A model generated the notes under the pieces. The model had not been told where the DNA came from, ran no database searches, and worked only from the letters and a program-made list of their open reading frames with translations. A DNA stretch of 64,000 nucleotides, taken from positions 4,154,001-4,218,000 of the forward strand of contig NZ_CP040812.1 in assembly GCF_006159205.1 (NCBI RefSeq), given 5' to 3'. Both the position numbers and the translations under genes were made by a program. This DNA comes from Antarcticibacterium flavum. GTDB lineage: Bacteria > Bacteroidota > Bacteroidia > Flavobacteriales > Flavobacteriaceae. Of this stretch, positions 8,987 to 34,212 are shown piece by piece; the stretch's first letter is position 1, and the number at the start of each line of letters is the position of its first letter.

Positions 8987-9211
8987 TATTGGTGTTCGAT
9001 TAAAAAAAATTAAAATTTTTTTTAGTCTTTTATATAAATAGCCTGAATACATATCAACCTCAACCAGGGAGTGGTTTTGGATCTGAAATAGTTCAGGGAA
9101 ATTCAAATTTTTTAATAATGGTAAACGATTATTTTCCACACACTCAGTTTTTGGTCTGGATTCTATATTCCAGCAGCGTGAGGGATCTGGAATCTTTTAC
9201 CGGGCAGTATG
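8987..9211 (+). repeat. MITE-like interspersed element, copy 1
   Basis: A 225-bp non-coding element in the 410-bp gap 8842-9251, which holds no gene. The left end TATTGGTGTTCGATTAAAA and right end TTTTACCGGGCAGTATG are imperfect inverted repeats related to CATTGTTGTCCG. Inside are the conserved left module (CATATCAACCTCAACCAGGG, 9050-9069, with hairpin AACCA/TGGTT) and right module (GGTCTGGATTCTATATTCCA, 9153-9172). Flanks share ATTTATA, a possible target duplication. It ends 40 bp upstream of the Crp/Fnr start, so regulatory signals of that gene may lie in or next to it. Confidence 0.7.
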
Positions 9212-9251
9212 AATTTATATAGTATTTTTACTGGACCTAGAATTTTTACTT

Positions 9252-9884
9252 ATGCTTGAAGATTTAAAAAAGAATTCCCTCTTTAATTTTGAAGAAGCCC
9301 TGTTAAAGGAAATCGAAGAAACCGGCAGCCTTAAAAAGTATAAAGGAGGGGATAAACTTATAGAGATTGGAGATTATGTAACAGCCATGCCTTTGCTGCT
9401 TAATGGAGCCGTAAAAATCCTGAGGGAGGATAAGGATGGCGATGAACTATTATTGTACTTCCTGGAAAGTGGGGATACCTGTGCGATGACCCTTTCCTGT
9501 TGTCTTGGACAAACCCGCAGTGAAATACGAGCTGTGGTTGAGCGGGATGCTACTGTAATTATGATACCCATAGCTAAAATGGAAGAATGGACTTCAAAAT
9601 TCAAATCCTGGCGCAACTTTGTCTTTGAAAGTTACCACAACAGGCTTTCAGAAATGCTGGATACCATAGACACCATTGCATTTCTTAATATGGACCAGAG
9701 GCTTATGAAGTATTTAAGGGATAAGGCAATGATCAATAAAAATGACCTGCTGCAGGTTACCCACCAGGAAATAGCCTATGATCTCCATACCTCCCGTGTA
9801 GTGATTTCAAGGTTACTTAAAAAACTTGAAATTGAAGGTAAAATAACATTGCAGCGCAATAGCATAAAAGTAGTAGATCTATAG
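9252..9884 (+). CDS. Crp/Fnr-family transcriptional regulator
   Basis: 210 residues: cyclic-nucleotide-binding-like beta-roll (about 20-115), dimerisation helix (about 118-150) and a Crp-type winged helix (about 155-208) with the recognition segment HQEIAYDLHTSRVVISRLLK. The beta-roll lacks a clear cAMP phosphate-binding cassette. It has Cys77, Cys83 and Cys84 in the segment DTCAMTLSCCLGQTR instead of an FNR N-terminal cysteine cluster. Many Bacteroidota have this form, and its ligand is not established; redox sensing through these cysteines is a guess. The gene stands alone between two copies of the interspersed element (8987-9211 and 9941-10154), both in the same orientation. Confidence 0.85.
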   Translation: MLEDLKKNSLFNFEEALLKEIEETGSLKKYKGGDKLIEIGDYVTAMPLLLNGAVKILREDKDGDELLLYFLESGDTCAMTLSCCLGQTRSEIRAVVERDATVIMIPIAKMEEWTSKFKSWRNFVFESYHNRLSEMLDTIDTIAFLNMDQRLMKYLRDKAMINKNDLLQVTHQEIAYDLHTSRVVISRLLKKLEIEGKITLQRNSIKVVDL

Positions 9885-9940
9885 CTAAACCATCTCTAAT
9901 CTATTTTCCTAAAGAAAGGTGCCAGTACCTCCTTATTGAA

Positions 9941-10154
9941 AACTGTTGTCCAATTACAATACCTAAAAAATTCCTCAAGCTATATAAAAGTCAGAGAAAA
10001 AAGCAAACTCGCTATCAGGTTAGTTTTGATTATTAAATATTCTAAAAAATTCCAATTTCTTCAGCAGAGGGTAAGTGATTTTTACCCGTACCTTTAGTCT
10101 AAATTCTAGATTCCATAAGCGCAGCGGTCCAGACTCTTTTACTTACCAGGAATG
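9941..10154 (+). repeat. MITE-like interspersed element, copy 2 (degenerate)
   Basis: A 214-bp element in the 293-bp gap between the Crp/Fnr gene and the next gene. The left end AACTGTTGTCCAATTACAAT resembles the family terminus. The right module is well kept (AGTCTAAATTCTAGATTCC, then GCGCAGCGGTCCAGACTCTT), ending ACTTACCAGGAATG. The left module is eroded, with only scattered matches (CTATCAGGTTAGTTTTGAT). No convincing target duplication is seen. It ends 23 bases before the ATG at 10178, so the promoter of that gene probably lies within the element. Confidence 0.55.
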
Positions 10155-10177
10155 CTTGAAATTTTGTAAATTCACTT

Positions 10178-10630
10178 ATGGCAGCAGGAAAAAAAGACAT
10201 CATATTTGTGGGAATTCAGTTTTTGCTTTTTGCAGCCTATTTGTTTGAGGTACCCCACTGGAGTTTAAATTTACCTTCCAATGTGGACCTGGTGCATTTA
10301 GGACTGGCAATAGCCGGAATAGTAATTATTCTTGTGGCAATGCTACAATTGAATAAAAACCTTTCCCCTTTTCCTACCCCTAAAAAAAATTCGGCCTTAG
10401 TTACTACAGGTCTTTTTCAATATTTCAGGCATCCAATTTACACCGGTATTATGATCACCGCCATTTTCTTTGGGCTGTATCTCAATTCCGGATACAAACT
10501 TATGATAGCCGTACTTCTTATTATTCTTTTTTATTTTAAAAGTAACTATGAGGAACAGGGGCTGGAAGATAAATTCCCCGGGTATAAAGGGTATAAAGCA
10601 TCTACAGGCCGTTTTTGGCCACGGTTTTAA
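10178..10630 (+). CDS. Isoprenylcysteine carboxyl methyltransferase-like membrane protein
   Basis: 150 residues with four to five hydrophobic helices. The C-terminal half has the ICMT/PEMT-type signature: GLFQYFRHPIYTGIM followed by EEQGLEDKFPGYKGYK, the SAM-binding pattern of small integral-membrane methyltransferases. Bacterial members methylate lipids or other membrane substrates; the substrate here is unknown. It is the first of three closely spaced genes (gaps of 12 and 3 bases) with an MBL-fold hydrolase and a soluble methyltransferase, probably one transcript. The start ATG follows TTTTGTAAATTCACTT and lies just outside an interspersed element. Confidence 0.8.
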   Translation: MAAGKKDIIFVGIQFLLFAAYLFEVPHWSLNLPSNVDLVHLGLAIAGIVIILVAMLQLNKNLSPFPTPKKNSALVTTGLFQYFRHPIYTGIMITAIFFGLYLNSGYKLMIAVLLIILFYFKSNYEEQGLEDKFPGYKGYKASTGRFWPRF

Positions 10631-10642
10631 TAATTTTGATAT

Positions 10643-11683
10643 ATGTTCAAACGTTTTGGAAAGGCTCCTGCAGGTAACAGGCAGGAAAGGATCAAATTAC
10701 AGGAAAACTACAGAGACGGGAAATTCCATAATCTGGAGCCAACAGCCGTTAGTCCTAAAGATGTTTCTTTTTTTAAAGTTTTGAAGGAATTCATCACCCG
10801 TCCAAATTCTGTTACTCCCGCCAGGGAAGTACCTATAAAAAAAACCGATCTTTTTAAGCTCCCCAAAGACAAAATTTCGGTTGTTTGGTTTGGACATTCT
10901 TCTTATTTGATAAATTATAAGGGCTTTGTGATTTTAATAGATCCTGTCTTTAGCGGAAATGCTTCTCCCGTAAAATTCTTTGGAAAACCTTTTAAAGGAA
11001 CCAATATTTATATGGCAGATGATTTTCCTCAGATCGATCTCCTGTTGATCACTCATGATCATTACGACCATCTCGATTACCCTTTTATAAAGCAAATAAA
11101 AGATAAGGTAAAGAAGGTGGTTTGTTCCCTGGGCGTGGGAGCGCACCTGGAGCTTTGGGGTATCCCACATGAGAAGATCATCGAACTCGGTTGGCAGGAA
11201 GAATTAAAGGTAAATAATGAACTAAATATTACTGCATTGCCCTCCAGGCATTTTTCCGGAAGGTCCACCAAAAGGTTCAATACCCTCTGGTCCTCATTTG
11301 CTTTGATCTGGAATGACTGCCGCATATATGTAGGGGGAGATTCCGGATACAGCCCGCAGTTCAGGGAAATTGGAGAACAATTTGGAAATTTTGACCTTGC
11401 TTTTTTAGAGTGTGGGCAATACAGTCAATACTGGCCCCAAATTCATATGATGCCGGAAGAAACTGTAAAAGCTGCACGGGATCTCAACGCGAAAATCCTT
11501 TTCCCTGTTCATTGGGGAAAGTTTGTGCTTTCCATACACCCCTGGAATGAACCTATAAATCGTATGGTTGCTGAAGCTAATAAAAAAGACCAGGATTTTG
11601 TTGCTCCGCACATAGGTGAAATGTATATTTTAGGTGAAAAATACGATCAAAAGGAATGGTGGAATTTCGAAGATAATGGATAA
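10643..11683 (+). CDS. MBL-fold metal-dependent hydrolase (NAPE-PLD/UlaG-like)
   Basis: 346 residues, cytoplasmic. Metallo-beta-lactamase-fold motifs appear in order: WFGHSSYLI and VILIDPVF near residue 80-110, the zinc motif THDHYDHLD, then LPSRHFSGR, YVGGDSGY (bridging Asp), and the final PVHWGKF histidine. This arrangement, with a long N-terminal extension and the RHFSGR segment, fits the N-acyl-phosphatidylethanolamine phospholipase D-like branch. All metal ligands are present, so an active di-zinc phosphodiesterase or lactonase is expected; the substrate is not evident. It is tightly packed between two methyltransferase genes. Confidence 0.85.
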   Translation: MFKRFGKAPAGNRQERIKLQENYRDGKFHNLEPTAVSPKDVSFFKVLKEFITRPNSVTPAREVPIKKTDLFKLPKDKISVVWFGHSSYLINYKGFVILIDPVFSGNASPVKFFGKPFKGTNIYMADDFPQIDLLLITHDHYDHLDYPFIKQIKDKVKKVVCSLGVGAHLELWGIPHEKIIELGWQEELKVNNELNITALPSRHFSGRSTKRFNTLWSSFALIWNDCRIYVGGDSGYSPQFREIGEQFGNFDLAFLECGQYSQYWPQIHMMPEETVKAARDLNAKILFPVHWGKFVLSIHPWNEPINRMVAEANKKDQDFVAPHIGEMYILGEKYDQKEWWNFEDNG

Positions 11684-11686
11684 ACT

Positions 11687-12301
11687 ATGGAGGAAACAAA
11701 AGAACACTGGGAGAAGATCTATAAAACAAAGGACTTGAAAGAGGTGAGCTGGTATCAGGAAAAACCCCGGCCATCTTTAAATTATATACAATCCCTGGAG
11801 CTGGATAAAGATGCAGCGATCATTGATGTTGGTGGAGGCGATAGTTTCCTGGCAGATCATCTTCTTGCTGAAGGTTATTCAAATATTACTGTGCTTGATA
11901 TTTCTGAAGAAGCCATCAACAGGGCTAAGAAAAGGTTGGGAAAGAAGGCCGGAAAAATTACCTGGATAACTGCCGATGCAGGTGATCTTAAACTGAAAGA
12001 ATCCTATGACCTGTGGCACGACCGGGCAGCTTTTCATTTTTTAACTGCAGAGGAAAAGATAGAAAACTACCTGAAGTCTATGAAGGCTCATGTCAAAAAG
12101 GGTGGTTATGTTATCCTTGGAACATTTTCAGAAAAAGGGCCGGAGAAATGCAGCGGCATCAAGATCAAACAGTATTCATTGCACGAAATGGCCGATCTTT
12201 TCGTAGAGGATTTTGAAATTGTGGACAGTGAAAATATAGACCACATAACCCCTACTGAAGCTATCCAAAACTTTAGTTTCGGAATTTTTAAGAAGTTATA
12301 G
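11687..12301 (+). CDS. Class I SAM-dependent methyltransferase
   Basis: 204 residues. A Rossmann-like methyltransferase with motif I DVGGGDSFLADHL (about 44-56), the acidic ribose-binding residue in VLDISEEAI, motif II ITADAGDL and a DLWHDRAAFHF segment typical of small thiopurine-/tellurite-type or generic methyltransferases. The start ATG at 11687 is 3 bases after the MBL-fold gene, implying co-transcription. It converges on the TlpA-like gene, with only 8 bases between the two stop codons and no obvious terminator. Substrate unknown. Confidence 0.85.
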   Translation: MEETKEHWEKIYKTKDLKEVSWYQEKPRPSLNYIQSLELDKDAAIIDVGGGDSFLADHLLAEGYSNITVLDISEEAINRAKKRLGKKAGKITWITADAGDLKLKESYDLWHDRAAFHFLTAEEKIENYLKSMKAHVKKGGYVILGTFSEKGPEKCSGIKIKQYSLHEMADLFVEDFEIVDSENIDHITPTEAIQNFSFGIFKKL

Positions 12302-12309
12302 ATAAATAA

Positions 12310-12891
12310 TCACTTCTGTTCCAGCAGGAATTCCCTGAATTCAGCAGTGTCAAAATCTCCCATTCCAATATGGGTGAGCACCAGTTCGCCTTCAGCATTA
12401 ATTACAAAGGTGGTGGGGATACTTTGGGTTATATACATATCTGGCATTCCCTTCACCGTTTCGTAGATCTCAAAGCTGTAATTATTCTTTTCTACAAAAT
12501 CCACTGCCTTTTGAAATTTGTGGTCCAGGGAGAGCATGATAAAAACTATATCCTCATCTTTTAGATCCCGGTAGAGATTTTCAATATCGGGCATTTCCAC
12601 AATACAGGGAGGGCACCAGGTTGCCCAAAGATTCATAAAGATCACCTTGCCACGAAATTCCTCCAGATTTACTTCTTCCCCTTCGGAATTTAAAAGCTGA
12701 AGCTGGAAATCGGCTGCCGGATAATTCCTCTTTGTCCCGGCTTCTGAATTTTTTTCAGCTGTGTCTTCAACTTTTGCTGTCTCCTGCAGAGTACTAAAAA
12801 CATTTGTTTGCAGCCCAAGAAAAATTAATCCGCCGGCGATAACTAAAATGCTTCCAAAGACCAGGAGGTTCTTCTTTATTTTTTTATTCAT
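12310..12891 (-). CDS. TlpA-like membrane-anchored thioredoxin
   Basis: 193 residues. One N-terminal transmembrane helix or uncleaved signal (about 8-26) anchors a periplasmic thioredoxin fold (about 58-193). The redox motif is WCPPC (residues 92-96), in NLWATWCPPCIVEMP, and the cis-proline loop reads SIPTTFVI. TlpA/ResA-type proteins reduce disulfides in periplasmic proteins or apocytochromes, with electrons from a CcdA/DsbD protein encoded elsewhere. It is monocistronic. A 178-bp divergent gap separates it from the desaturase gene at 13069. Confidence 0.9.
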   Translation of the reverse strand: MNKKIKKNLLVFGSILVIAGGLIFLGLQTNVFSTLQETAKVEDTAEKNSEAGTKRNYPAADFQLQLLNSEGEEVNLEEFRGKVIFMNLWATWCPPCIVEMPDIENLYRDLKDEDIVFIMLSLDHKFQKAVDFVEKNNYSFEIYETVKGMPDMYITQSIPTTFVINAEGELVLTHIGMGDFDTAEFREFLLEQK

Positions 12892-13068
12892 ACAATGCCA
12901 GATTTAACCCCTTTAAGTTGCGAGTGGATCAATTCAATTCGCCTGCGAAGATAGATTTTCATTTTTACTCTAAATGTGACAATTGTTACATTTCGCCAAA
13001 TTTTTAAAGTTCCCGGCATACCTGGGTGTAACATTAGTTACTTTAAGTTCTCCAGAGATTGAGTAATT

Positions 13069-14025
13069 TTGCATCTAAACCTCGATTACTTGAAATACTT
13101 CAGGATCATTCAGGATTCGTTTATCGGATATTTTAATTACCTGGTGGGAGAGATCACCAATCCTTCGTGGGGTAATTACTTTTACTGGCTCATTGGCCTG
13201 TCCCTCCTGGTATGGGCAGTGGAGATCCTTGTTCCCTGGCGCAGGAAGCAGAAGATATTCAGGAAGGATTTCTGGCTGGATAGCTTTTATATACTCTTTA
13301 ATTTTTTCCTCTTTTCTCTTATTGGTTATAATGCGATCTCCAATGTGGGGGTGGAACTTTTTAATGATTTTCTAAGCCTGTTTGGTATTACGAATCTCGT
13401 TGCCATAGAAGTGCAGGCGTTCCCGGTTTGGGCACAGCTGGCTATTATGCTGGTAATAGCCGACTTTATCCAGTGGAATGTGCACCGGCAGCTTCACAGA
13501 CAGCCATGGCTCTGGGAATTCCATAAAGTTCATCATAGTGTGAAGGAGATGGGCTTTGCCGCCCAGTTTCGGTTTCATTTTATGGAAACCATCATCTATA
13601 AGACCGTGCAATACATTCCTCTTGCTATGATAGGATTCGGCATACAGGAATTTATTATTGTTCATATGTTTGCAGTGCTCGTAGGGCACCTAAACCATGC
13701 GAATATAGGTTGGGGTTATGGGATTTTTGGTTATATTTTCAATAACCCAAAAATGCACATCTGGCATCATTCCAAAGCACTTCCAGAAGAGCACCCGCAC
13801 GGGATGAATTATGGCCTCACCCTGAGTATCTGGGATTATCTATTTGGAACCGCTTATGTGCCTCACGATGGAAAGGATATTGAACTCGGATTTGAAGGAG
13901 ATGAGGATTTTCCTAAAACATTTACAGGGCAGGTAGTTTTTCCGTTCAGGAAAGAAAGACCTCTTCAACCTAATGATACTCTACAGAAGGAAAAATCCAA
14001 CCTGGTTTATAGAGAAAGAAAATAG
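13069..14025 (+). CDS. Fatty acid hydroxylase / sterol desaturase family protein
   Basis: 318 residues, integral membrane, with four to five helices. The diiron histidine clusters of the superfamily are present: HRQLH, HKVHHS, and a late HIWHHSK, plus HLNHAN. Such enzymes hydroxylate or desaturate lipid or carotenoid-like substrates; the target is not clear. No ATG exists before residue 120, so translation must begin at TTG 13069, TTG 13090 or another rare codon. An in-frame stop at 13060 limits the extension. TTG 13069 also overlaps a TAATTTTG promoter-like motif (13064-13071), which would favour the later start. The assigned start is uncertain. Confidence 0.8.
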   Translation: MHLNLDYLKYFRIIQDSFIGYFNYLVGEITNPSWGNYFYWLIGLSLLVWAVEILVPWRRKQKIFRKDFWLDSFYILFNFFLFSLIGYNAISNVGVELFNDFLSLFGITNLVAIEVQAFPVWAQLAIMLVIADFIQWNVHRQLHRQPWLWEFHKVHHSVKEMGFAAQFRFHFMETIIYKTVQYIPLAMIGFGIQEFIIVHMFAVLVGHLNHANIGWGYGIFGYIFNNPKMHIWHHSKALPEEHPHGMNYGLTLSIWDYLFGTAYVPHDGKDIELGFEGDEDFPKTFTGQVVFPFRKERPLQPNDTLQKEKSNLVYRERK

Positions 14026-14049
14026 CCGTCTCTGGCTATATACCTCAAG

Positions 14050-14079
14050 ACCTTCGAAAAATTCTCTGAAGGTTTTTTT
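14050..14079 (+). terminator. Rho-independent terminator after desaturase gene
   Basis: ACCTTC (14050-14055) pairs with GAAGGT (14068-14073) around a short loop, followed by seven T residues. It lies 25 bp after the desaturase stop. Confidence 0.65.
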
Positions 14080-14171
14080 GTGCCTATTGTTTAGAAATTC
14101 AGCAGTAAAAGCCTTGAAAGTTTTTTATATTTACAACACAAGTATAAAATAGCCAGTCTAAACAAATAATA

Positions 14172-14657
14172 ATGGAAAAAAAATATAAGGTAAAGGTGAA
14201 CGATTCCCTGGAGTATAATTTTTCTGAAGAGGAGATAAAGGCCCTGGATTCGCAAAAAATATCTGCATCACAATACCATCTTTTACAAAATAACCGCTCT
14301 TTTAAAGCTGAGGTCCTGGAGGCCGGATTTTTAAAGAGAGAGTATTCGGTTAAGATCAACAACAATACCTACAACATTAAAATTTCCAATGAACTGGACC
14401 TGCTCATAGAAGAGATGGGGCTTTCCCTTGGTACTTCCCAACTGGTAAACGATCTTAAAGCACCTATGCCGGGATTAATTCTGGATGTGAACATCAAGGC
14501 CGGGGATGAGGTGAAAGAAGGGGATTATCTCCTGGTGCTGGAAGCCATGAAAATGGAAAATACACTTACCGCTCCAAGAGACGGGGTAGTGAAATCTGTT
14601 TCAGTTAAAAAAGGGGAAACTGTGGATAAAAACCAGTTGCTGGTGGAGATGGAGTAG
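14172..14657 (+). CDS. Biotin carboxyl carrier protein of acyl-CoA carboxylase
   Basis: 161 residues. The C-terminal 75 residues are a biotinyl domain with the biotin acceptor motif EAMKMEN (Lys127), preceded by KAPMPGLI, the paired half-motif. The N-terminal 90 residues are the linker domain often seen in flavobacterial propionyl-/methylmalonyl-CoA-type carboxylases. Its operon partners are a biotin carboxylase (14721) and a carboxyltransferase (16209), so it carries CO2 between those two active sites. It ends at a TAG that runs directly into a GC-rich repeat. Confidence 0.9.
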   Translation: MEKKYKVKVNDSLEYNFSEEEIKALDSQKISASQYHLLQNNRSFKAEVLEAGFLKREYSVKINNNTYNIKISNELDLLIEEMGLSLGTSQLVNDLKAPMPGLILDVNIKAGDEVKEGDYLLVLEAMKMENTLTAPRDGVVKSVSVKKGETVDKNQLLVEME

Positions 14658-14680
14658 CCCCCCGGCCCCCGAAGGGGATG
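14656..14680. repeat. GC-rich intergenic palindrome-like repeat, copy 1
   Basis: AGCCCCCCGGCCCCCGAAGG followed by GGATG, immediately after the stop codon of the carrier-protein gene. A near-identical unit occurs at 17868-17892. The C-run and G-run can form a short hairpin within the operon mRNA. Confidence 0.6.
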
Positions 14681-14720
14681 TTAAAAAGCAAGCTTTCAGA
14701 ATTAAAAAGATCAATTTTAA

Positions 14721-16175
14721 ATGAAAAAAATATTAGTCGCCAATCGTGGTGAGATTGCCCTTAGGGTAATGAGAACAGTTCAAAAAATGGGGATCAAGAC
14801 CGTGGCAGTCTTTTCTGTGGCAGATCGTAATGCGCCCCACGTAAAATTTGCCGATGAGGCTGTTTGTATAGGAGAAGCGCCATCAAATGAGTCTTACCTG
14901 CTGGGAGATAAAATTATCAAAGTTGCCAAAGAACTGGGAGTGGATGGCATTCACCCCGGATACGGATTCCTTAGTGAGAACGCTGATTTTGCCGAAAAAG
15001 TGGAGCAAAACGGCATTACCTGGATAGGACCGGGATCTAAAGCCATACGCGTTATGGGTAGTAAACTTGCTGCCAAGGATGCGGTGAAGGATTATGGGAT
15101 CCCAATGGTTCCCGGAATAGACGAAGCTATTACAGATGTGGAGAAAGCGAAAAAGATCGCTAATGAGATTGGATTCCCTATTCTAATAAAAGCCTCTGCG
15201 GGGGGTGGAGGTAAGGGAATGCGTATTGTGGAGAAGGAAAAGGATGTGGAAGATCAAATGAAGCGCGCTATAAGCGAGGCAGAATCGGCTTTTGGAGACG
15301 GATCTGTATTTATTGAAAAATATATTGGTTCCCCGCGCCACATTGAGATACAAGTATTATCTGATACTCACGGAAATACCCTGCACCTCTTTGAAAGGGA
15401 GTGCAGCATTCAAAGAAGGCACCAGAAGGTGGTTGAAGAAGCCCCCTCTGTTGTTCTTACTGAAGAAATTCGGAAAAAAATGGGAGAAGCGGCCGTGAAG
15501 GTGGCTATGGCTTGCGACTATGTAGGCGCGGGAACGGTGGAGTTCCTTCTTGATGAAAACAAGAATTTCTATTTCCTGGAAATGAATACCCGCCTGCAGG
15601 TGGAGCATCCTGTGACCGAGATCATTACCGGGCTGGACCTGGTGGAACAACAAATAAAGGTAGCCAGGGGAGAGAAACTGGAGTTTGGCCAGGAGGATCT
15701 TAGGATAAAAGGACATGCGGTGGAACTTCGTATCTACGCAGAGGATCCTCTGGATAATTTTATGCCAAGTGTAGGGCTTCTGGAAAAATATCGCACTCCC
15801 GCGGGAGAAGGAATAAGGCTGGATGATGGTTTTGAAGAGGGAATGGAAGTCCCTATTTACTATGATCCCATGCTGGCAAAATTGATCACTTATGGAAAGA
15901 GCAGGGAAGAAGCCATCCAGCGTATGCTGTATGCCATAAATAATTATGAAGTGCAGGGAGTGATGACCACCCTGCCCTTCGGGAAATTTGTATTTGAGCA
16001 TGAAGCCTTCCGCAGCGGAAATTTTGATACCCACTTCGTGAAGAATTATTATTCAGCTGAAAAACTTCAGCAGGAGATAGAGGAAGAAGCTAAACTCGCC
16101 GGGTTAATTGCCCTGAAGAAATACCTGGAGGACCAGAAACAGTTAAGGGTACCGGGAAGTAAGGTACAGGAGTAG
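14721..16175 (+). CDS. Biotin carboxylase subunit of acyl-CoA carboxylase
   Basis: 484 residues. Catalyses ATP-dependent carboxylation of biotin. N-terminal biotin carboxylase domain starts MKKILVANRGEIALRV; the ATP-grasp domain has KASAGGGGKGMRIV (glycine-rich loop) and ends with EMNTRLQVEHPVTE, the catalytic Glu/Arg region; a C-terminal biotin-carboxylase domain follows to about residue 450. Length is slightly more than E. coli AccC (449), with an extra helical C-terminus typical of stand-alone acyl-CoA carboxylase subunits. It lies between the carrier and carboxyltransferase genes. An accC-type symbol would be ambiguous because the partners suggest propionyl-CoA as substrate. Confidence 0.92.
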   Translation: MKKILVANRGEIALRVMRTVQKMGIKTVAVFSVADRNAPHVKFADEAVCIGEAPSNESYLLGDKIIKVAKELGVDGIHPGYGFLSENADFAEKVEQNGITWIGPGSKAIRVMGSKLAAKDAVKDYGIPMVPGIDEAITDVEKAKKIANEIGFPILIKASAGGGGKGMRIVEKEKDVEDQMKRAISEAESAFGDGSVFIEKYIGSPRHIEIQVLSDTHGNTLHLFERECSIQRRHQKVVEEAPSVVLTEEIRKKMGEAAVKVAMACDYVGAGTVEFLLDENKNFYFLEMNTRLQVEHPVTEIITGLDLVEQQIKVARGEKLEFGQEDLRIKGHAVELRIYAEDPLDNFMPSVGLLEKYRTPAGEGIRLDDGFEEGMEVPIYYDPMLAKLITYGKSREEAIQRMLYAINNYEVQGVMTTLPFGKFVFEHEAFRSGNFDTHFVKNYYSAEKLQQEIEEEAKLAGLIALKKYLEDQKQLRVPGSKVQE

Positions 16176-16208
16176 CAAGTCAAAATTACCAATTCAACAA
16201 GAAATTAC

Positions 16209-17750: not shown

Positions 17751-17860
17751 GGTTGTCGGTTGTCGGTTGTGAGTTGTCGGTTGTTGGTTGAAAAAAGTTG
17801 TAGGTTGTAGGTTGTAGGTTGTAGGTTGAAAAAAAAGTTGTCGGTTGTCGGTTGAAAAAA
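17744..17860 (+). repeat. Heptanucleotide tandem repeat (GGTTGTC / GGTTGTA)
   Basis: Period-7 repeat of about 117 bp starting inside the carboxylase stop codon (GTTGTAG, 17744-17750). The order is about five GGTTGTC-type units, GGTTGAAAAAA, four GGTTGTA-type units, GGTTGAAAAAAAA, two GGTTGTC units, GGTTGAAAAAA. Units with C and units with A at the last base are kept in separate blocks bounded by A-runs. No coding role is seen. Similar period-7 arrays are found after genes in other Bacteroidota. Confidence 0.85.
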
Positions 17861-17867
17861 GTGGAAA

Positions 17868-19562: not shown

Positions 19563-19630
19563 TTAGCCTGCAAAGATATCTTTTTTATTTCCGGTTACCT
19601 TGTAATTACCAAAAAGTAGGAATTTGAAAC

Positions 19631-20084
19631 CATTGTTGTCCGATAAAAATATGTAAATTTTCCTTAACCCTTTCCGTGTATAGCAGAAGACATATCAACC
19701 CCGACCAGGGGGTGGTCTTGGATCTTAAATAAATTTGGAAATTTCACGTCATTGGGGTCCGATTAAAATAATGTGAATTTACGTTAAGTCTTGCTACATA
19801 TAGTCCGAGGTCTTATCAACCTCCACCGGGAGTGGTTTTGAATCTAAATTAATTAAAAAAATCCAGGCAGTTTAAAATTGGATAAACATCTAATTTTCAA
19901 AAACATAAATTTAGTCTGGTTTCTATATTCTAGCAGCGGAAGCGGTCCAGACTCTTTTACCGGACAACAATGATTTTAAGTTTTGAAACAGAAGGTAGCT
20001 AACCATTTTTTAAGCACTCATATTTTGGTCCGGATTCTAGATTCCAGTAGCGCAGCGGTCCAGACTTTTAAACGTGCAACAATG
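19631..20084 (+). repeat. MITE-like interspersed element, copy 3 (outer, interrupted by copy 4)
   Basis: The outer element begins CATTGTTGTCCGATAAAA (19631) and ends ACGTGCAACAATG (20084); without the inserted inner copy it is about 231 bp. Left module at 19690-19725 with hairpin GACCA/TGGTC; right module GGTCCGGATTCTAGATTCCA (20027-20046) to CAGCGGTCCAGAC. Its flanks are ATTTGAAAC (19622-19630) and ATTTGGAAC (20085-20093), 8 of 9 identical, a convincing target duplication. The whole gap 19563-20205 (643 bp) holds no gene; besides these elements it contains the trxB leader. Confidence 0.75.
19750..19972 (+). repeat. MITE-like interspersed element, copy 4 (inner, nested)
   Basis: The best preserved copy, 223 bp. 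Left end CATTGGGGTCCGATTAAAAT, right end TTTTACCGGACAACAATG, inverted relative to each other. The right module has a 7-bp stem, AGTCTGG (19913-19919) with CCAGACT (19947-19953); the left module has CCAC/GTGG. Flanks ATTTCACGT (19741-19749) and ATTTTAAGT (19973-19981) match at 7 of 9 positions. It sits inside copy 3 between that copy's left and right modules. Confidence 0.75.
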
Positions 20085-20205
20085 ATTTGGAACTTATTGA
20101 GGCGATGAGTATCTTGTATTAAAGGAAGAATTCAAAAGTTCCACACTTTTTAAGTAAGCTTTTACCTATTCTTCCTACTTTTACAGTATTAAAAACAAAA
20201 CAACC

Positions 20206-25528: not shown

Positions 25529-25554
25529 AAAAGCGGCCTGCGGGCCGCTTTTTT
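25527..25554. terminator. Terminator after the 64-aa gene
   Basis: AAAAAAGCGGCC (25527-25538) pairs with GGCCGCTTTTTT (25543-25554) around TGCG; strong GC stem with T tail. The symmetrical A/T runs allow it to serve the convergent oxyR gene as well. Confidence 0.9.
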
Positions 25555-25589
25555 ATTCTTTAAACTACCTGTGTGTGTATAAAGTATAA

Positions 25590-26543: not shown

Positions 26544-26566
26544 AAAGCCTTGAAATATTACAGCTG

Positions 26567-26574
26567 CAAATGTA
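26567..26574 (-). promoter_or_regulatory. Putative -7 promoter element of oxyR
   Basis: TACATTTG on the minus strand fits TAnnTTTG, about 24 bases upstream of the oxyR ATG. No clear -33 TTTG is found at the normal distance, so activator-dependence or a weak promoter is possible. Confidence 0.4.
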
Positions 26575-26623
26575 TTGATTTTTTCTATTCGAAAAATTCC
26601 TTACTGCTACTTTTACCTATAGT

Positions 26624-27052
26624 TTAACGACTAAGATTAATCGTCATTTCCATTGTAGTGTCATCAACCTCAAATTTGGCATCTTCCCATCGTGGTGGTC
26701 CAAAAGGGTTGAAGATATTATTTGAAATCCCATAATCTTCCTGCGGCATTCCGGAAGCTTCAAAATCCATACGTCCATTGGAATTCCTGTCGTGTAAAAC
26801 TGAAAGGCCATAAGTTCCCGCAGGGACGTTTTCAAATACAAGAGTTACCTTTCCATTCTCTATCTTCCCGCTTTTGGCTCCAAATTCAGCTTCTGTCCTC
26901 ATAAATGTTTCCTTGCTGTAAAGACCGGCCAGCACCTCTCCTTCATTGCTTTTAATATTTTCCACTACCACCGTTAGAGTAGCTGTTTTTCCTTCCTGGG
27001 AGAATGCTGAATTAAAAGCAAACATAAGCATTAAAAAAATGATCGTTTTCAT
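26624..27052 (-). CDS. DUF2141-domain secreted protein
   Basis: 142 residues. A signal peptide ending AFNSAFSQ (about 18) precedes a compact all-beta domain. The pattern TVVVENIKSNEGEVLAGLY, FENVPAGTYGLSVLHDRNS and GRMDFEASGMPQEDYGISN is characteristic of DUF2141, a small periplasmic family with no assigned function. It ends 80 bp upstream of the oxyR start and may share regulation with it. Its own promoter may use TATCTTTG at 27082-27089 (minus). Confidence 0.85.
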   Translation of the reverse strand: MKTIIFLMLMFAFNSAFSQEGKTATLTVVVENIKSNEGEVLAGLYSKETFMRTEAEFGAKSGKIENGKVTLVFENVPAGTYGLSVLHDRNSNGRMDFEASGMPQEDYGISNNIFNPFGPPRWEDAKFEVDDTTMEMTINLSR

Positions 27053-27081
27053 AATTTATAGTTTAAGGTTATTAATACGAT

Positions 27082-27089
27082 CAAAGATA
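27082..27089 (-). promoter_or_regulatory. Putative -7 promoter element of the DUF2141 gene
   Basis: TATCTTTG on the minus strand fits TAnnTTTG, 30 bases upstream of the ATG at 27052. No good -33 element. Confidence 0.35.
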
Positions 27090-27151
27090 TAGGGCAGGGC
27101 AGGCCCCTAAAAAGTAAAGGTTCCCAACTGTAGAAAAAAGGGGATGAAGTG

Positions 27152-28483
27152 TTAGAGGATCCCGCGAGCCTTGATCTCCAGGTATTTATTAATGGTGTTC
27201 ACGGTTAAATCCTCGGGCCTGGTAAGTAAGGTTTGGATCCCGTGTTGCTGGAGTTTCCTGGCCATAAGCCTCTTCTCATATGCAAAATCCTCAGCAATGG
27301 TTTGGTGAGCGATTCCCGGAATGTTTGTCATTTGGGTTTTTACCACCTTTTCCAGTTCCACGTTTTCAAAGAAGATTACTACGAGTACGTGATGTTTTGC
27401 CAATGCCTGCAGGTAACCCAGGTTTCTTCCCAGGGCATTCATATGTTCAAAATTGGTATAGAGGAGCAGCAGGCTGCGCTGGCGTACTTTTCTCTTAAGG
27501 AGCGTGTATAACATCCCAAAGTCTGAATCCAGAAAATCTGTATTAATGTTATAAAGGTTCTCAAGGATCTGGTTGAGGTAGGTACGTTTGGCATTGGCCG
27601 GCAGGATACTACCGGGTTTATTGGAGAAGGAGATCACCCCTGTTTTATCCTTTTTTTGCAAAGCTACATTGGAAAAAGCCAAGGTACTGTTAATAGCATA
27701 ATCCAAAAGGCTAAGCCCGTTAAAGGGCATTTTCATCACACGCCCGGTATCAATTATGGAATATACCGGTTGGGCCTTTTCATCCTGATATTGATTAACC
27801 ATTAACCCGGGTTGTTTTGCAGTAGCTTTCCAGTTGATACTTCTCACATCATCGCCCGCAACATATTCCTTTATTTGTTCAAATTCCTGGGTATGGCCAA
27901 TTCTTCTTATCTTTTTAAGGCCTGCCTGTCTTAACCTGTTATCTATTGCAAGGAAATCATACTGCCTCATTTGTATGAATGAAGGGTAAACTTTTACAGT
28001 TGCCTCCTCATCAAACACCATCCTTTTCTTGAGCATTTTAAAAGCAGAGGACACATAGATGTTCAATTTTCCAAAGGTATATTCACCCCGCTCCACCGGT
28101 CTTAAACCATAATCAAAGCCCGAAGTTTGCCCTGCACCCAGGATAAGGTTTTGCTGAAAATCCCGCTTCTGGAATTGTACCGGGATCTCATCTATTATTT
28201 CCAGAAAAACCCTGAACTTATAAGTGTTGGTCACATGTACGTAAACCTGATTGTTATCTGAATTTGATAACTTCTCTGGAACCCGCCTTTGAGCCGTGAT
28301 CCCTATCTTATTATATAAAGCTATAAAATCAATAAGTAATAAAATGAAAAGCAGGACAGCTATGAGCCAGGCAGGAGTATATAGGATAGGAAACCAATAG
28401 GAGAACAGGAATAATACGGCAAGGCTAAAAACCGCCGTAAACACCCGTTGGTGAAAATATATGGACTTAAAGGTTTTAAGCAC
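27152..28483 (-). CDS. DUF58-domain protein of the MoxR locus
   Basis: 443 residues from a GTG start directly after the MoxR stop (0-base gap). Two N-terminal transmembrane helices (about 15-55) precede a cytoplasmic or extracytoplasmic region; the DUF58 core is at about 190-260 (EFEQIKEYVAGDDVRSINWKATA), a von Willebrand factor A-like fold (YSIIDTGRVM). In MoxR loci DUF58 proteins are thought to act with the AAA ATPase in protein or complex assembly. It is the last gene of the operon that begins at 33241. Confidence 0.9.
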   Translation of the reverse strand: MLKTFKSIYFHQRVFTAVFSLAVLFLFSYWFPILYTPAWLIAVLLFILLLIDFIALYNKIGITAQRRVPEKLSNSDNNQVYVHVTNTYKFRVFLEIIDEIPVQFQKRDFQQNLILGAGQTSGFDYGLRPVERGEYTFGKLNIYVSSAFKMLKKRMVFDEEATVKVYPSFIQMRQYDFLAIDNRLRQAGLKKIRRIGHTQEFEQIKEYVAGDDVRSINWKATAKQPGLMVNQYQDEKAQPVYSIIDTGRVMKMPFNGLSLLDYAINSTLAFSNVALQKKDKTGVISFSNKPGSILPANAKRTYLNQILENLYNINTDFLDSDFGMLYTLLKRKVRQRSLLLLYTNFEHMNALGRNLGYLQALAKHHVLVVIFFENVELEKVVKTQMTNIPGIAHQTIAEDFAYEKRLMARKLQQHGIQTLLTRPEDLTVNTINKYLEIKARGIL

Positions 28484-29482
28484 CTACCTTGGTATTTCTA
28501 TTGTATTTGCGATAATATCAATTACATTTTCCTGGGTAATGCCTTCCATTTCCCTTTCAGGTGAGAGGATAACCCTGTGAGCCAGGACAGGAGCCAGTAT
28601 CTTTTTGATATCCTCAGGAATTACAAAATCCCTCCCTTCAATAGCAGCCATAGCCTTACCGGCATTCATTACTGCAATGGTGGCACGTGGCGACGCCCCC
28701 AAATAGAGGTGAGGATGATTACGTGTTTTAATGACCAGTTGTGCAATGTAATTCAGTAATTTTTCCTCAACACGAACCTCCCTTATCTGCACCTGCAGGG
28801 CCTGCAGTTGTTCGGGGGTAAGTACAGGAGTTATATTAGCTTCAGGCAAAGCTCCTTTTCTTTCATGATGTGACTGCAGGATCCTTACTTCCTCTTCGGC
28901 AGTAGGGTAATCTACTTTTATTTTAAACAAAAAGCGGTCTAGTTGAGCTTCGGGCAAGGCATACGTACCTTCCTGCTCAATAGGGTTTTGAGTTGCCACT
29001 ACCATAAAAGGTGGTTTCATTTCATACTTCTTTCCATCTATGGTAATTTGTCGTTCCTCCATCACCTCGAACAGAGCCGCCTGTGTTTTGGCAGGCGCCC
29101 GGTTAATTTCGTCTATAAGGACAATATTTGAGAATATAGGTCCCGGTTTGAAATCAAAACCAGAGGTTTTTGAGTTGAGGACAGATGTTCCCAGGACATC
29201 GCTGGGCATAAGATCTGGAGTAAATTGTATCCTGCTAAATTCTGTTTCCAGGGTACGGGCAAATAATTTTGCAGTTACGGTCTTGGCTACCCCCGGTACC
29301 CCCTCAATGAGTACGTGGCCATTGGCCAGCAATCCCGCTATTAGCAATTCAATGAACCTATCCTGCCCAATTATGACCTGGCCCAACTGGCCTTTAAGAT
29401 CCTGTACTGCCTTCTGTAATTCTTCAAGGGGAATACGGTTATGAAAATGTATTTCTTCGTTTGGAGTGACTTCGTTATTCAT
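28484..29482 (-). CDS. MoxR-family AAA+ ATPase
   Basis: 332 residues. Walker A GVPGVAKT (61-68), Walker B IVLIDEINRAP, sensor 1 VVATQNPIEQEGTY and sensor 2 GASPRATIA, all intact. MoxR ATPases are chaperone-like and help to assemble or activate metal or protein complexes, often with a VWA/DUF58 partner, encoded here next door. Spacing to the DUF4350 gene is 6 bases, and to the DUF58 gene 0 bases. Confidence 0.95.
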   Translation of the reverse strand: MNNEVTPNEEIHFHNRIPLEELQKAVQDLKGQLGQVIIGQDRFIELLIAGLLANGHVLIEGVPGVAKTVTAKLFARTLETEFSRIQFTPDLMPSDVLGTSVLNSKTSGFDFKPGPIFSNIVLIDEINRAPAKTQAALFEVMEERQITIDGKKYEMKPPFMVVATQNPIEQEGTYALPEAQLDRFLFKIKVDYPTAEEEVRILQSHHERKGALPEANITPVLTPEQLQALQVQIREVRVEEKLLNYIAQLVIKTRNHPHLYLGASPRATIAVMNAGKAMAAIEGRDFVIPEDIKKILAPVLAHRVILSPEREMEGITQENVIDIIANTIEIPR

Positions 29483-29488
29483 GTAGTA

Positions 29489-30678
29489 CTATTGTTTATA
29501 GGAATCTATTTTTTCATTAAGTTCCCTTAATTCTTCTTTACTAATTTCCGGTTTTCGGGATATATCTGTAAATAATGCCCTTAGATCATTAATATCTTCA
29601 ATGCTGTGGCCGCTTTTTTGGGATAGTTCCCTAAGAGTTTTCTCCTCCTGCCAGGCTGAAAAGATCCTGTACCTGGTTCGAATATAATCATAAAAATGAT
29701 CAATTTTTTTAAGCGCCAGGGCTTTGTATTGTTTCTGTTCCAGGTAAAGGTCTGCAATTGTCCTGGAGTATTCGTAGGTTTGATTTTTAAGCGGTTCAAC
29801 CACCGGTACCGGCCGTTGTTTCCTCTTGCCTTCGAATATGATAAAGAGAACAGCACCTATAAGGATAAAATAGTAAGCCCATTTTAGCGCCCTGTTATTA
29901 AGAAGTATATAAAGGGGGGAAGTGTGAAATTTTTTTCCGGTTTTATAGTATCTATCCCAGTATACAGGCCCTTTGTTATCAAGATATGCCAGTACTCCCT
30001 CAGCATATTTATAGTTATCCTCCTTCAGCAAAAAATAATTGCTGAAAGCTTCGGGAAAGGAATGAATATAAATATTTCCCTTACCCCATTCTGAATGTAA
30101 AAATAGCGGATAAGCTTCCTCTTGTGACCTATATTCTTTAAGACTTCCTACTCCAAGGATCGTATGCTTTAAGGTATCAATCCTGCTGAAATATTCCAGG
30201 TTCACGTCGTGGTCAAAGTGCCAGGCATTTGATTGCTGAAGCTTTTTATTAACCAGGCTCACATAGGGACGGGAGGTAAAATTTCCGCCGGGGATTAGTG
30301 TAGATGTTTCCAGTTGCAGGGTGTCACGAAGTGATTCACTAAAATATGATGCAGCGAGAAAAACTGTATTCCCTTCTTCTACCCAGTTAAGGATTTTCTT
30401 AACCTCTGCTTTGTCAAAATCAAGGTAGTTGTTTAAAAAGAAATAAGTACCACCAGGTTCTGAATTCAGAAATTCAAATGGCGGTACATCTACCTTCTCC
30501 AAATTTACACCGGTATCCCCCAGGATTCGTAAAAAATAAAACTTCCCAATGCTATCCTGTCTGTTTCAAGATAACTGGGATTCCAGTTGACAGGATCAGG
30601 TTCAGATGCCTCCAAGTAGGTAAGCAGTAAAACCATAAGCAGGATAAGTCCCATGGCAAATTTACCTCCTCTAGTCAT
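29489..30678 (-). pseudogene. DUF4350-domain protein, one frameshift near the N-terminus
   Basis: The main frame reads 337 residues from 30502. Upstream, from ATG 30678, a second frame encodes the missing start: a membrane helix (MGLILLMVLLLTYLEA), then WNPSYLETDRIALGS. The two join as IALGSFYFLRILGDTGVNLE if one base is added near 30535-30545 (GGAAGTTTT run); total about 396 residues, the family norm. The C-terminal half has another helix (about 235-255 of the main frame) and a cytoplasmic tail. In the MoxR locus it follows the DUF4129 gene, overlapping its stop by 8 bases. Role unknown. The deletion may be an assembly error. Confidence 0.8.
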
Positions 30679-31429
30679 GGGTGTAGGATTTTAGTGTGGC
30701 ATTAATCTTATTGAAATTCTCCTGAACCCTGTTAAAATCTCCTGCCGACACCTCAAAATTTCCGTACCAGATGAAATTGTAAAGTCTGATGATCCTTCTC
30801 ACCGAATTTTGCAATTCATTTTCTTTTATTTCAGCAAGATAATCGGCATTGGTCTTTTGGTATTCATAATTTATGATTCCGTTACTGTCCAGTTGTTTAA
30901 GAAGCCTGAGGTAATAATACCTAACTGCTAGCCGATAATCCCCCCGTGCTATTGCCTCTTCAATAAGGCCAGAAATATCTGCCTTCTGGATTATTTCTTC
31001 CTCTTCATTAAAGATCACCCCGGGTTGCTCCATCTCTCCAAGGAAAGAGGCGCCGGGATTGAGCCTTATAAATAACCACACAATAAATCCCAAAATTGCA
31101 ATGATAATAAGGTAGGGGAGCAGTTTTAAAAGAAAAGTGAGAATAGAGTTTGCCTGGTATTCTCCAAACAGCCAGTTTAGGAACTGTTGATACTTCATAT
31201 CCAGCCATTTTTTGAAACGGGTCCACCATGAATCCTTTTCGATCTCATTTAAATAATCAAATGCTTTGAGCTGGCGGTAATCCTCGAGCTTAGCTGAATC
31301 AAAAACCACGGGTTCCACCTCCCTTATCGTATCATACTGCACTACCGGCCTTGGGGCAATACTATCCTTTTGAGCAGGAAAGGCATTACTGCAGTAGAAA
31401 ATGCTAATAAGGAGGAGGAATAACTTCAT
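30671..31429 (-). CDS. DUF4129-domain protein of the MoxR locus
   Basis: 252 residues. Signal peptide (MKLFLLLISIFYCSNAFPA), a transmembrane helix at about 100-125 (LPYLIIIAILGFIVWLFI), then the cytoplasmic DUF4129 domain (about 150-245; AIARGDYRLAVRYYYLRLLKQL), helical. Members occur almost only with MoxR and DUF58 genes; some resemble transglutaminase-linked domains. It starts one base over the preceding gene's stop (31429) and overlaps the start of the DUF4350 gene by 8 bases, so the operon is tightly coupled. Confidence 0.88.
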   Translation of the reverse strand: MKLFLLLISIFYCSNAFPAQKDSIAPRPVVQYDTIREVEPVVFDSAKLEDYRQLKAFDYLNEIEKDSWWTRFKKWLDMKYQQFLNWLFGEYQANSILTFLLKLLPYLIIIAILGFIVWLFIRLNPGASFLGEMEQPGVIFNEEEEIIQKADISGLIEEAIARGDYRLAVRYYYLRLLKQLDSNGIINYEYQKTNADYLAEIKENELQNSVRRIIRLYNFIWYGNFEVSAGDFNRVQENFNKINATLKSYTHD

Positions 31430-32286
31430 TAATGATTTCCCAGGTTATCTATAGTTTCAAAGGTGCCAGTAAGGTTTTTATGCTCATTGAGGTTAAAGTA
31501 AATAAACGTAATAGCAATGATCGTAATGGTAGAGAGCAGGTATTGGATAAGGGAAGAGATCACGTTAAGCACCATAAATGGCCAATCCATAAACGCTTCA
31601 GGATTGGCTGCAGATCCTTCCTGAACCATTGTAAACGCTTTTATGAACATATAAATCAACATAGGCATCTGGAAGACAAGGCCTATGATATAAACCAGCA
31701 ACCAGACGACCAGGAGTGTGATAAAGGTCATCCACCAGTGATCTTTAATAAGCTCAAAACAATAGCCTATAGATTCTGTTACACTATATCTTTTAAAAAC
31801 CAGCACGGCAGATGCAAAACTTAGCGGGACGATCAAATAGATCCCGGGAATAATAAACACAATTAGGCCGGCAATTATGAGGATAGCAGATATTATAGAA
31901 AGCAATATAAGTTTGAAGAAATCCTGCTGCACCCCTTGCTTTACATCCTTGGGTTTGACCTCTCCATTATGCAGGGTATAGGATTTTATATAATGAAGGA
32001 TTGTACCGTAGAGCGCGGCATAAAAAAGTAATAATGCGGCTGCAAGAATAAGAAAGGCAAAGAGAAAATTGGTAAACCCACTGCTTATTGCCTGGAAAGG
32101 ACTACCCGCTACTGCATAGGTGTAATAGGAGATTGCAGCCAAAAGAATAAGAAAATATGGCCCCGTAATACTGGTCATCAATTTAAGCAAAGGCTTGTAA
32201 TTTTCCCTTATAAATTTAAATGTGACAGTTAAAATGTCACCTAATTCCCTTTGTTTTTTAAACTGGATATTACTATTTGTTTGCAT
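31429..32286 (-). CDS. Integral membrane protein of the MoxR locus
   Basis: 285 residues with six or more hydrophobic helices (about 40-65, 75-110, 135-175, 190-225, 240-265). Sequence features such as GDILTVTFKFIRENYKPLL and FIIPGIYLIVPLSFASAVLVF resemble the membrane domain of glycerophosphodiester phosphodiesterase-like proteins, but no catalytic domain is present. It lies between the SpoIIM-like gene (14-base overlap) and the DUF4129 gene (1-base overlap), the standard position of this protein in Bacteroidota. Function unknown. Confidence 0.8.
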   Translation of the reverse strand: MQTNSNIQFKKQRELGDILTVTFKFIRENYKPLLKLMTSITGPYFLILLAAISYYTYAVAGSPFQAISSGFTNFLFAFLILAAALLLFYAALYGTILHYIKSYTLHNGEVKPKDVKQGVQQDFFKLILLSIISAILIIAGLIVFIIPGIYLIVPLSFASAVLVFKRYSVTESIGYCFELIKDHWWMTFITLLVVWLLVYIIGLVFQMPMLIYMFIKAFTMVQEGSAANPEAFMDWPFMVLNVISSLIQYLLSTITIIAITFIYFNLNEHKNLTGTFETIDNLGNH

Positions 32287-33241
32287 TTAATTTTTTGTTG
32301 TTTAGATAGATAGGATAGTAGACATAGTAGAACAGGATGCTAAGCAACGAAACAGTTATTATTATAATTGCAAGGAAGTCTGGCATTCCCGTAAGCCTGG
32401 TAACAAAGCCCTCGAGAAATCCCGCGATTATAAAAAAGGGAATGGTGCTTAATACAATTTTAAGTCCTTCTTTGACCCCTTTAACAAACGAGGTAAGCCG
32501 GGGATATGTCCCCGGAAAAAGGATGCTTTTACCAACTACCAGTCCTGCGCATCCCGCAATAATTATTACAGATATCTCAATGGTGCCATGGATCCAGATC
32601 GTTCTGGCAGATTCCCAAAGCATTCCCTGCTCGTGAAAAAAATACTGAAAGGACCCCAGCATAATGGCATTTTGCATGAGGATGTAAACGGTTCCCAGGC
32701 CGGCAAGGATGCCAAAAGTATAAGCCATAAGGGCCACCCGTATATTATTTATGGTGATACCCAGGAACATATCGACCTCTCCCATTTGCTTATACACGGC
32801 CATAGGATCTTCCCTGGCTATATTCTCGAGAGTCATATTAACATAGGCATCGCCTAATATCGCTCTTACAAATGCAGCATCACTCGATGCCGAAAAAACA
32901 CCTACAGCTATAAAAATACTGAATATCAAAAAGCTCAAAAGCAGCTGTTTTTGATGCCTGTAAAACATTTTGGGAAAATCGCGGGTGTAAAAGTTCAAAA
33001 AAACGTTTCCAGGTTCTTTTCTGTTGGTATAAATCCTTTGATGTGCCTTTGCTGCCAGCCCATTAAGATAGGTAACGGTATTGCTGCCGGAATAAAAGGT
33101 TTTTGCGTAGCTAAGATCATCTGTTACCTCCAGGTAAAGATGGGAAATAGCCTGAGGATCTGGAGATTTTTTATTGTGTAGCTCCTCTTCGAATTTCAGC
33201 CATTTATTCTTATTTTGCTTCACGAAAGCAGCCTCGCGCAT
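32273..33241 (-). CDS. SpoIIM-like (stage II sporulation protein M family) membrane protein
   Basis: 322 residues. It begins MREAAFVKQNKNKWLKFEEE, the typical start of the Bacteroidota family, then a helical cytoplasmic region to about 105 and five transmembrane helices. The name comes from a fold shared with Bacillus SpoIIM; this organism would not sporulate, so the role is different, probably in the MoxR-associated membrane complex. It is the first gene of the minus-strand operon (33241 down to 27152) and is divergent from the RDD gene with a 34-bp gap. Confidence 0.88.
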   Translation of the reverse strand: MREAAFVKQNKNKWLKFEEELHNKKSPDPQAISHLYLEVTDDLSYAKTFYSGSNTVTYLNGLAAKAHQRIYTNRKEPGNVFLNFYTRDFPKMFYRHQKQLLLSFLIFSIFIAVGVFSASSDAAFVRAILGDAYVNMTLENIAREDPMAVYKQMGEVDMFLGITINNIRVALMAYTFGILAGLGTVYILMQNAIMLGSFQYFFHEQGMLWESARTIWIHGTIEISVIIIAGCAGLVVGKSILFPGTYPRLTSFVKGVKEGLKIVLSTIPFFIIAGFLEGFVTRLTGMPDFLAIIIITVSLLSILFYYVYYPIYLNNKKLNANK

Positions 33242-33275
33242 GAGTCAGGATATTTGTCTCAAAGAAACGTATTAA

Positions 33276-33992
33276 ATGGATAATTTTCAAATAGAAACCG
33301 CTCAAAATATAGGGATTCACCAAAATGTCGCAGGGATAGGAGAAAGGATCCTTGCATTCTTAATAGATACCTTGATCCTTACGGGATTTGCCATTCTAAC
33401 CTCCCTGGCAATATCTGGCCTTGGCTTAGGGGGTGGAGAACTTTGGGTTTATTACCTTGTTGTTGGACTGCCCATTTTCCTATATTACCTGCTATGGGAA
33501 ACTTTTAATAATGGCCAAAGCCCGGGGAAAGCAGCGCTGGATCTAAGGGTTGTAAGGCTGGATGGTGCCAGGCCCAGGTTTAACCAGTTTATTGTAAGAT
33601 GGTTGTTAAGGATCGTAGATATCTCTATAAGCAGTGGTGCAGTGGCCGTGGTAACCATATTACTTAACGGCAAAGGCCAACGTTTAGGCGATCTGGCCGC
33701 CGGTACTACCGTGATCACTGAAAAAAAACAGGTCAACCTCTCACAAACCATTTTAATGGATTTACCAGAGAATTTTGAGCCAACCTACCCGCAGGTAATT
33801 GCCCTCAAGGACCGCGATATCCAGGATATCAAGAGGATCTATAATGATGCCCGGCAGTATGGAAATCACAAGGTTATTGTTACCCTGTCCCAGAAGATCG
33901 CCAGTATAATTGAGGTAGAGCCAAAAGAAAAGCCGGTAGATTTTGTAAGGATAATTTTAAGGGATTACAATTATTACACCCAGGGAAATTAA
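33276..33992 (+). CDS. RDD-family membrane protein
   Basis: 238 residues. The RDD domain (about 18-150) has ERILAFLIDTLIL, GQSPGKAALDLRVVRLDGARP and GQRLGDLAAGTTVI, with two to three membrane helices. The last 80 residues are a soluble tail (KDRDIQDIKRIYNDAR), a Bacteroidota feature. RDD proteins may act as small-solute or ion exchangers. It is divergently paired with the MoxR operon, as in many relatives. Its TAA is two bases from the interspersed element at 33994. Confidence 0.88.
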   Translation: MDNFQIETAQNIGIHQNVAGIGERILAFLIDTLILTGFAILTSLAISGLGLGGGELWVYYLVVGLPIFLYYLLWETFNNGQSPGKAALDLRVVRLDGARPRFNQFIVRWLLRIVDISISSGAVAVVTILLNGKGQRLGDLAAGTTVITEKKQVNLSQTILMDLPENFEPTYPQVIALKDRDIQDIKRIYNDARQYGNHKVIVTLSQKIASIIEVEPKEKPVDFVRIILRDYNYYTQGN

Positions 33993-33993
33993 T

Positions 33994-34212
33994 CACTGTT
34001 GTTGGTATAAGAGTCTGGACCGCTACCGCTGCTGGAATATAGAACCTGGACTAAAATCTAAGTCTTTTAAAAACATCGTTTTACACACTTTTTAAAAGCC
34101 TGAATTTTCTTAAACTGAATTAGATTCGGGACCACCCCCATGTTAAGATTGATATGACCTGTGGCTATTTATACAAGGCCTAACGTATTCAAATTTTAAT
34201 AGGACATCAATG
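33994..34212 (-). repeat. MITE-like interspersed element, copy 5 (reverse orientation)
   Basis: 219 bp filling almost all of the 225-bp gap between two convergent stop codons (33992 and 34218). Plus-strand left end CACTGTTGTTGGTATAAGAG, right end TTTTAATAGGACATCAATG. The right module GAGTCTGGACCGCTACCGCT (34010-34029) and left module (about 34120-34165) read in reverse. Ten-base flanks GGAAATTAAT and GATAATTAAT agree at 8 positions, a likely target duplication. No gene or terminator is seen in it. Confidence 0.7.

Follow-up and report, generated by a model that had tools for sequence, protein, structure and literature searches.

A multi-copy family of about 225-bp MITEs in Antarcticibacterium flavum, most likely moved by an IS4-family transposase with a PF14294 domain

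Introduction

The described systems closest to the elements reported here are the MITEs of Porphyromonas gingivalis, namely BrickBuilt, MITE239, MITE464/PgRS and MITE700 (PMC4596501), the insertion sequences (ISs) of the IS4 family, and the TAACTGA heptamer direct repeats recorded from Beggiatoaceae, Cyanobacteria and five Bacteroidetes (PMC4679880). The window analysed in this study is a stretch of 64,000 bases of Antarcticibacterium flavum and sits in a single-contig genome of 4.35 Mb (bases 4154001-4218000; the host genome). A sequence-only reading of this window had claimed that five gene-free segments are copies of one non-autonomous transposable element with inverted ends. The family is of a known kind; no earlier description of it was found in the literature searched, with ISfinder and most subscription journals outside that search.

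Results

Five copies of one element in the window

All five segments are copies of one family: they have common ends and modules, and the family is present in multiple copies in the genome. The positions given for them in the sequence-only reading are right to within a base or two; the copy at 8987, for example, ends at 9212 and not at 9211. The copies and their flanking duplications are:

8987..9212, plus strand: full-length copy, its right end degenerate (first given as 8987-9211)
8978-8986 / 9213-9221: imperfect 9-bp duplication of the copy at 8987 (7/9)
9941..10154, plus strand: diverged element copy of 214 bp, its clear duplication gone (3/9)
19631..20084, plus strand: outer element copy, split by the inner copy
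19622-19630 (ATTTGAAAC) / 20085-20093 (ATTTGGAAC): duplication of the outer copy (8/9, by eye)
19750..19972, plus strand: inner element copy of 223 bp, nested within the outer copy 19631-20084
19741-19749 / 19973-19981: duplication of the inner copy (7/9)
19913..19954, plus strand: right module of the inner copy
33994..34212, minus strand: element copy between two convergent genes
33984-33993 / 34213-34222: duplication of the copy at 33994 (8/10), overlapping the stop codon of gene 33276-33992

When the copies are aligned, they show common ends, a left module (ATCAACCTC...GGGGGTGGTTTTGAATCT), an AT-rich and more variable middle, and a right module (AGTCTAGGTTCTATATTCTAGCAGCGGAAGCGGTCCAGACTC). 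The right module together with the right end is the best-kept part across species, whose interiors differ. That the ends are inverted held true, while the terminus first read did not: the consensus left end is CATTGGTGTCCGATTAAAA and not CATTGTTGTCCGATAAAA, and the two ends of the consensus agree at 15 of 25 positions, which all fall in the outer 18 (positions judged by eye). The family has the terminal inverted repeats of a MITE. The window copies are old and their duplications decayed.

Another repeat of the window lies at 59271-63196, where a 51-nt unit is present in eight imperfect copies, 156 bp apart three times. They fall within two very long frames of the reverse strand, a layout like that of tandem-domain proteins.

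Copies in the host genome

A search of the host genome with the inner copy (19750-19972) gave at least 41 matches (E-values from 4.7e-113 to 1.6e-6; best 40 of 104 candidates), and a search with one copy from a second subfamily gave at least 43 (best 40 of 98 candidates). In the 317,794 bases of the host genome that were covered, namely the stretches around elements and ISs, 63 clusters were counted. Four of them are, pair by pair, fragments of two single copies, which leaves about 61 elements as a lower bound, and one additional copy (L223) lies beyond the 63 clusters. The genome-wide search thus found many copies besides the five of the window.

Twelve of the 63 clusters are shorter than 195 bp and 51 are near full length. 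Both ends are within 6 mismatches of 19 in 47 of these 51, and these 47 copies are the set used for statistics; the copy at 33994-34212 is outside this set, having more than 6 mismatches in its right end. The 47 copies are between 214 and 232 bp long (median 225 bp, GC content 37%). Their longest stop-to-stop frame has a median of 40 and a maximum of 75 codons: the elements have no coding capacity for a transposase. Pairwise identity among the copies has a mean of 0.71 (range 0.51-1.00), which suggests that most copies are old; closer groups exist, for example with 93-94% identity.

Two near-identical copies (G000:C1:24634-24854 and 4343724-4343943) have 24-bp flanks that are identical on both sides and are therefore probably one insertion within a duplicated segment. 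At G000:C1:3683726-3684085, a truncated element immediately adjoins a full-length one in the same orientation, and this is another stacked insertion.

Evidence for transposition

Target duplications of 9 or 10 bp, called at an identity of at least 8/9 or at least 9/10, flank 22 of the 47 copies (14 at 9 bp and 8 at 10 bp); in the control, 1.7% of 2162 mismatched pairs of left and right flanks have such a duplication. Flank identity is clearly in excess solely at lengths 9 and 10. The other 25 of the 47 copies have no clear duplication. Nesting is evident too, as one window copy is inserted in another.

An orthologous empty site was found for one copy, the one at 33994-34212. Its downstream gene is present in 13 of the 21 genomes searched, host included, and in six of the 12 relatives it is adjoined by the upstream gene. 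In five of these six, at most a few bases lie between the two genes; in the sixth (G011) there is a gap of roughly 210 nt in which recognisable element ends are absent. The upstream gene was not visible in the loci of the six other relatives. For the copy at 8987, the upstream gene was found near the regulator gene in the host genome only. At 9941, both neighbour genes are in one locus in five relatives, with a distance of about 850-1300 nt in four of them and of about 94 nt, without element ends, in the fifth (G001); the spacing in G001 is compatible with an empty site. The comparisons at 8987 and 9941 are left out of the evidence.

The left and right modules are better kept than the middle, and the right module is common to several species; both observations would suit a repeated structured non-coding RNA or regulatory cassette in place of a transposon. 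This explanation has next to no chance of being correct: as the main explanation it is already contradicted by the target duplications and the empty site, and nesting also speaks against it, as do the absence of any Rfam match in the window at gathering scores and a consensus fold of 39 copies that has two pairs, neither covarying. A secondary regulatory effect of the elements is possible. The segments are confirmed as a genuine non-autonomous MITE-type DNA transposon family, in line with what the sequence-only reading had proposed; of the two outcomes that this reading had named as refuting it, a lack of further genomic copies and a lack of orthologous empty sites, neither occurred.

A hairpin of the right module acting as terminator was considered and rejected: the arms are direct 7-bp units that pair inconsistently (by eye), and there is no such fold in the 39-copy consensus structure.

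Elements in other species

The exact pattern of the right-module core has matches in 8 of 60 genomes, the host included, and the reversed control pattern has none; one of the eight (G043) has an apparent chance match inside a gene. There are 57 right-module matches in total, of which 30 were read. The host consensus and one host copy were aligned with seven elements from four other genomes, which together with the host rows are 209-238 bp long. Identity to the host consensus is 0.56-0.80 in the left 25 bp, 0.67-0.78 in the right 60 bp and 0.24-0.40 in the middle (values without a computed chance level). Four of the seven elements have a perfect 9-bp duplication, namely that of Gillisia limnaea, both Gelidibacter elements and one of G006 (by eye). 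These data define a family of mobile elements common to Gillisia and Gelidibacter.

The core of the module is also found free-standing, with 7-bp repeats around it and element ends absent: eight core places were read in the host genome, five of which are elements and three free (L244, L246 and L250). In a separate set of 27 stretches, five (from Gelidibacter and G. limnaea) have element ends (by eye) and several more, of Flavobacteriaceae origin, resemble free-standing arrays; several from unrelated bacteria are apparent chance matches.

Candidate transposases

The sequence-only reading had placed the parent transposase outside the window, and indeed none of the 34 PF01609 matches of the host genome is inside. 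Loci were available for 30 of these matches, and 28 were compared in five groups. One group consists of nine ISs (L061-L069) of 1415-1416 bp with ends CACTGGCGTCCGGTAAA, which show 3 differences from the element right end within the outer 17 positions; all nine have a perfect 10-bp duplication. The ends of the other four groups differ from this element-like type. Two ISs of G. limnaea (L097 and L106; 1381-1383 bp) have the ends CATTAGTGTCCGATAAAA and a perfect 9-bp duplication each, and one of them has stops in its gene. Their ends resemble the element left end and are not equal to it; the first 18 bases of the G. limnaea IS recur at the start of the Gelidibacter element in L098. G. limnaea has four further PF14294 ISs, whose ends are of another type (TACTAGTGATGCG).

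When one protein per IS was tested, NF033592 (IS4 family) matched with 214.7 and 215.1 bits (cut-off 115), and PF14294 (DUF4372) and PF01609 were above cut-off in both proteins. In the IS translations, YKQRWQIELLFKRLK and YKHRWQIETMFKRLK fit Y(2)R(3)E(6)K (by eye), the signature of the IS4 family. ISs of the IS4 family with PF14294 and PF01609, nine in the host genome and two in G. limnaea, are the likely movers, and this would tie the elements to those IS4 transposases that carry PF14294, an uncharacterised domain.

Of 16 Gillisia genomes, three have a PF14294 match, and elements of this build are present in each of the three; they are three of the four Gillisia genomes with right-module matches in elements (Fisher p about 0.007, calculated by hand from a small sample and with 30 of the 57 matches read). 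Across a broader set of 199 genomes of the bacterial family, PF14294 matches occur in 18. The fourth element-bearing Gillisia, G006, has no PF14294 match. It has 18 right-module matches, of which eight were read: seven have both element ends and the eighth is cut by the contig. Neither of its two PF01609 loci has element-like ends. Gelidibacter G028 has no PF14294 match either. In G002, loci were available for 28 of 67 PF01609 matches and none has a pair of element-like ends; three of the 28 have a single end match with 2 mismatches. The duplication is always 10 bp for the nine host ISs and more often 9 bp for the elements. These findings and the differing ends of the four further G. limnaea ISs speak against a PF14294 mover; the 25 copies that lack a clear duplication and the gap in G011 also count against the explanation given next.

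We regard it as very probable that the segments are a multi-copy family of about 225-bp MITEs moved by an IS4-family DDE transposase with PF14294. Such a transposase would recognise the inverted ends, excise the element and then paste it into a staggered cut of 9-10 bp, the repair of which would give rise to the flanking duplications. As no IS with the exact element ends was found in the host genome, we can only infer that PF14294 IS4 transposases mobilise the elements in trans, and as most copies also look old, the original partner IS may have been lost. The missing exact-end IS, and the elements of G006 and Gelidibacter G028 that occur without a PF14294 match, would suit a transposase outside the PF14294 and PF01609 group, with a merely coincidental likeness to IS4 ends. 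We think this improbable, given that the outer 17 bases are similar around TGTCCG or CGTCCG, that IS4 ISs and elements both have duplications of 9-10 bp, that both have the same landing preference in the host genome (see below), and that PF14294 is present in three of the four element-bearing Gillisia genomes.

A search with the end pattern CATTGTTGTCCGA, allowing at most 1 mismatch, gave 42 places in the host genome, 30 of them with loci, and no IS partner emerged. The sole one of these 30 loci without an element match, L037, is a chance match inside a transposase gene that is presumably of the IS66 type (by eye). Among the other 12 places, the one at 1594152 is element-free and falls within a frame of 254 codons.

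Two sets of PF01609 ISs, L084-L087 and L088-L090, apparently lie inside terminator-like inverted repeats (arms judged by eye), with flanks that read like two hairpin arms around the IS; their duplications are 8 bp (4/4) and 4 bp (3/3), respectively.

Heptad landing sites

With the flanks joined, 15 of the 47 element sites reach a lag-7 self-identity of 0.45, an arbitrary threshold that is also reached by 6.3% of 3000 control spots sampled from 36,530 intergenic positions of the stretches around elements and ISs. Lag 14 is also raised at the element sites and lags 6, 8 and 13 are raised slightly; lags 5, 9, 11 and 12 are not. Four of the nine sites of the ISs L061-L069 reach 0.45 and six reach 0.43, which fits one machinery acting on the elements and the nine ISs. 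For the other PF01609 ISs of the host genome, 17 sites were scored and all stay below 0.45 (highest 0.43); these are the sites with script-found ends among 19 loci tried, and several, mainly of groups C and B, lack a clear duplication, so that their boundaries are less sure. In other genomes, none of nine PF14294 ISs with an end pair reaches 0.45, three of the nine being without clear duplication. Outside this set of nine are the four G. limnaea ISs with ends TACTAGTGATGCG, of which one (L101) is inside 7-bp repeats (by eye). A preference for landing in 7-bp arrays is thus supported in the host genome and was not seen as a general feature beyond it, and it may partly reflect how rich the host genome is in such arrays.

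Arrays of 7 bp, with many different units and often with GCAGCGNAGCGGTC inserts, are found in Gillisia, Gelidibacter and other Flavobacteriaceae; examples from the host are the flanks of the elements at 3758350, 1228384 and 4289854, and L228, L230, L236 and L246.

A broader reading is put forward here as doubtful. A lineage of about 220-bp elements would keep its ends and the 60-bp right module, with an interior that is replaced, or diverged beyond recognition, between species. The right module would itself consist of a few 7-bp units arrayed around GCAGCGNAGCGGTC, of the kind that is also free-standing, apparently intergenic, in Flavobacteriaceae and that is the preferred landing site here, and each element would then bring along a copy of its landing site, or would be seeding such arrays. 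Two features merit further attention, the conserved right module and the preference for landing in heptamer arrays. Should this preference be real, it would help to show what PF14294 transposases recognise and how the heptamer arrays of several Flavobacteriaceae arose.

Comparison with known systems

The MITEs of P. gingivalis are alike in that they come from the same phylum, are short, lack a transposase gene and have inverted ends like those of ISs in the same genome; short tandem repeats inside two of them are a further likeness (PMC4596501). Their ends match the IS5 family and their duplications are short or irregular (PMC4596501), whereas the present elements have ends like those of the IS4 family (PF14294) and duplications of 9-10 bp. 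The 7-bp repeats described here serve as landing sites and contribute to a module at one end of the element; they do not form an internal minisatellite.

The ISs of the IS4 family (PF14294 and PF01609, NF033592) resemble the elements in their outer 17 bases and share their duplication lengths; they differ in their size of 1381-1416 bp, in encoding a transposase and in having no right module in the ends read.

The TAACTGA repeats are also mostly intergenic and also consist of a tandem 7-bp unit (PMC4679880). That study deals with a single heptamer (PMC4679880), whereas the landing sites of the present elements are built from many different heptamers.
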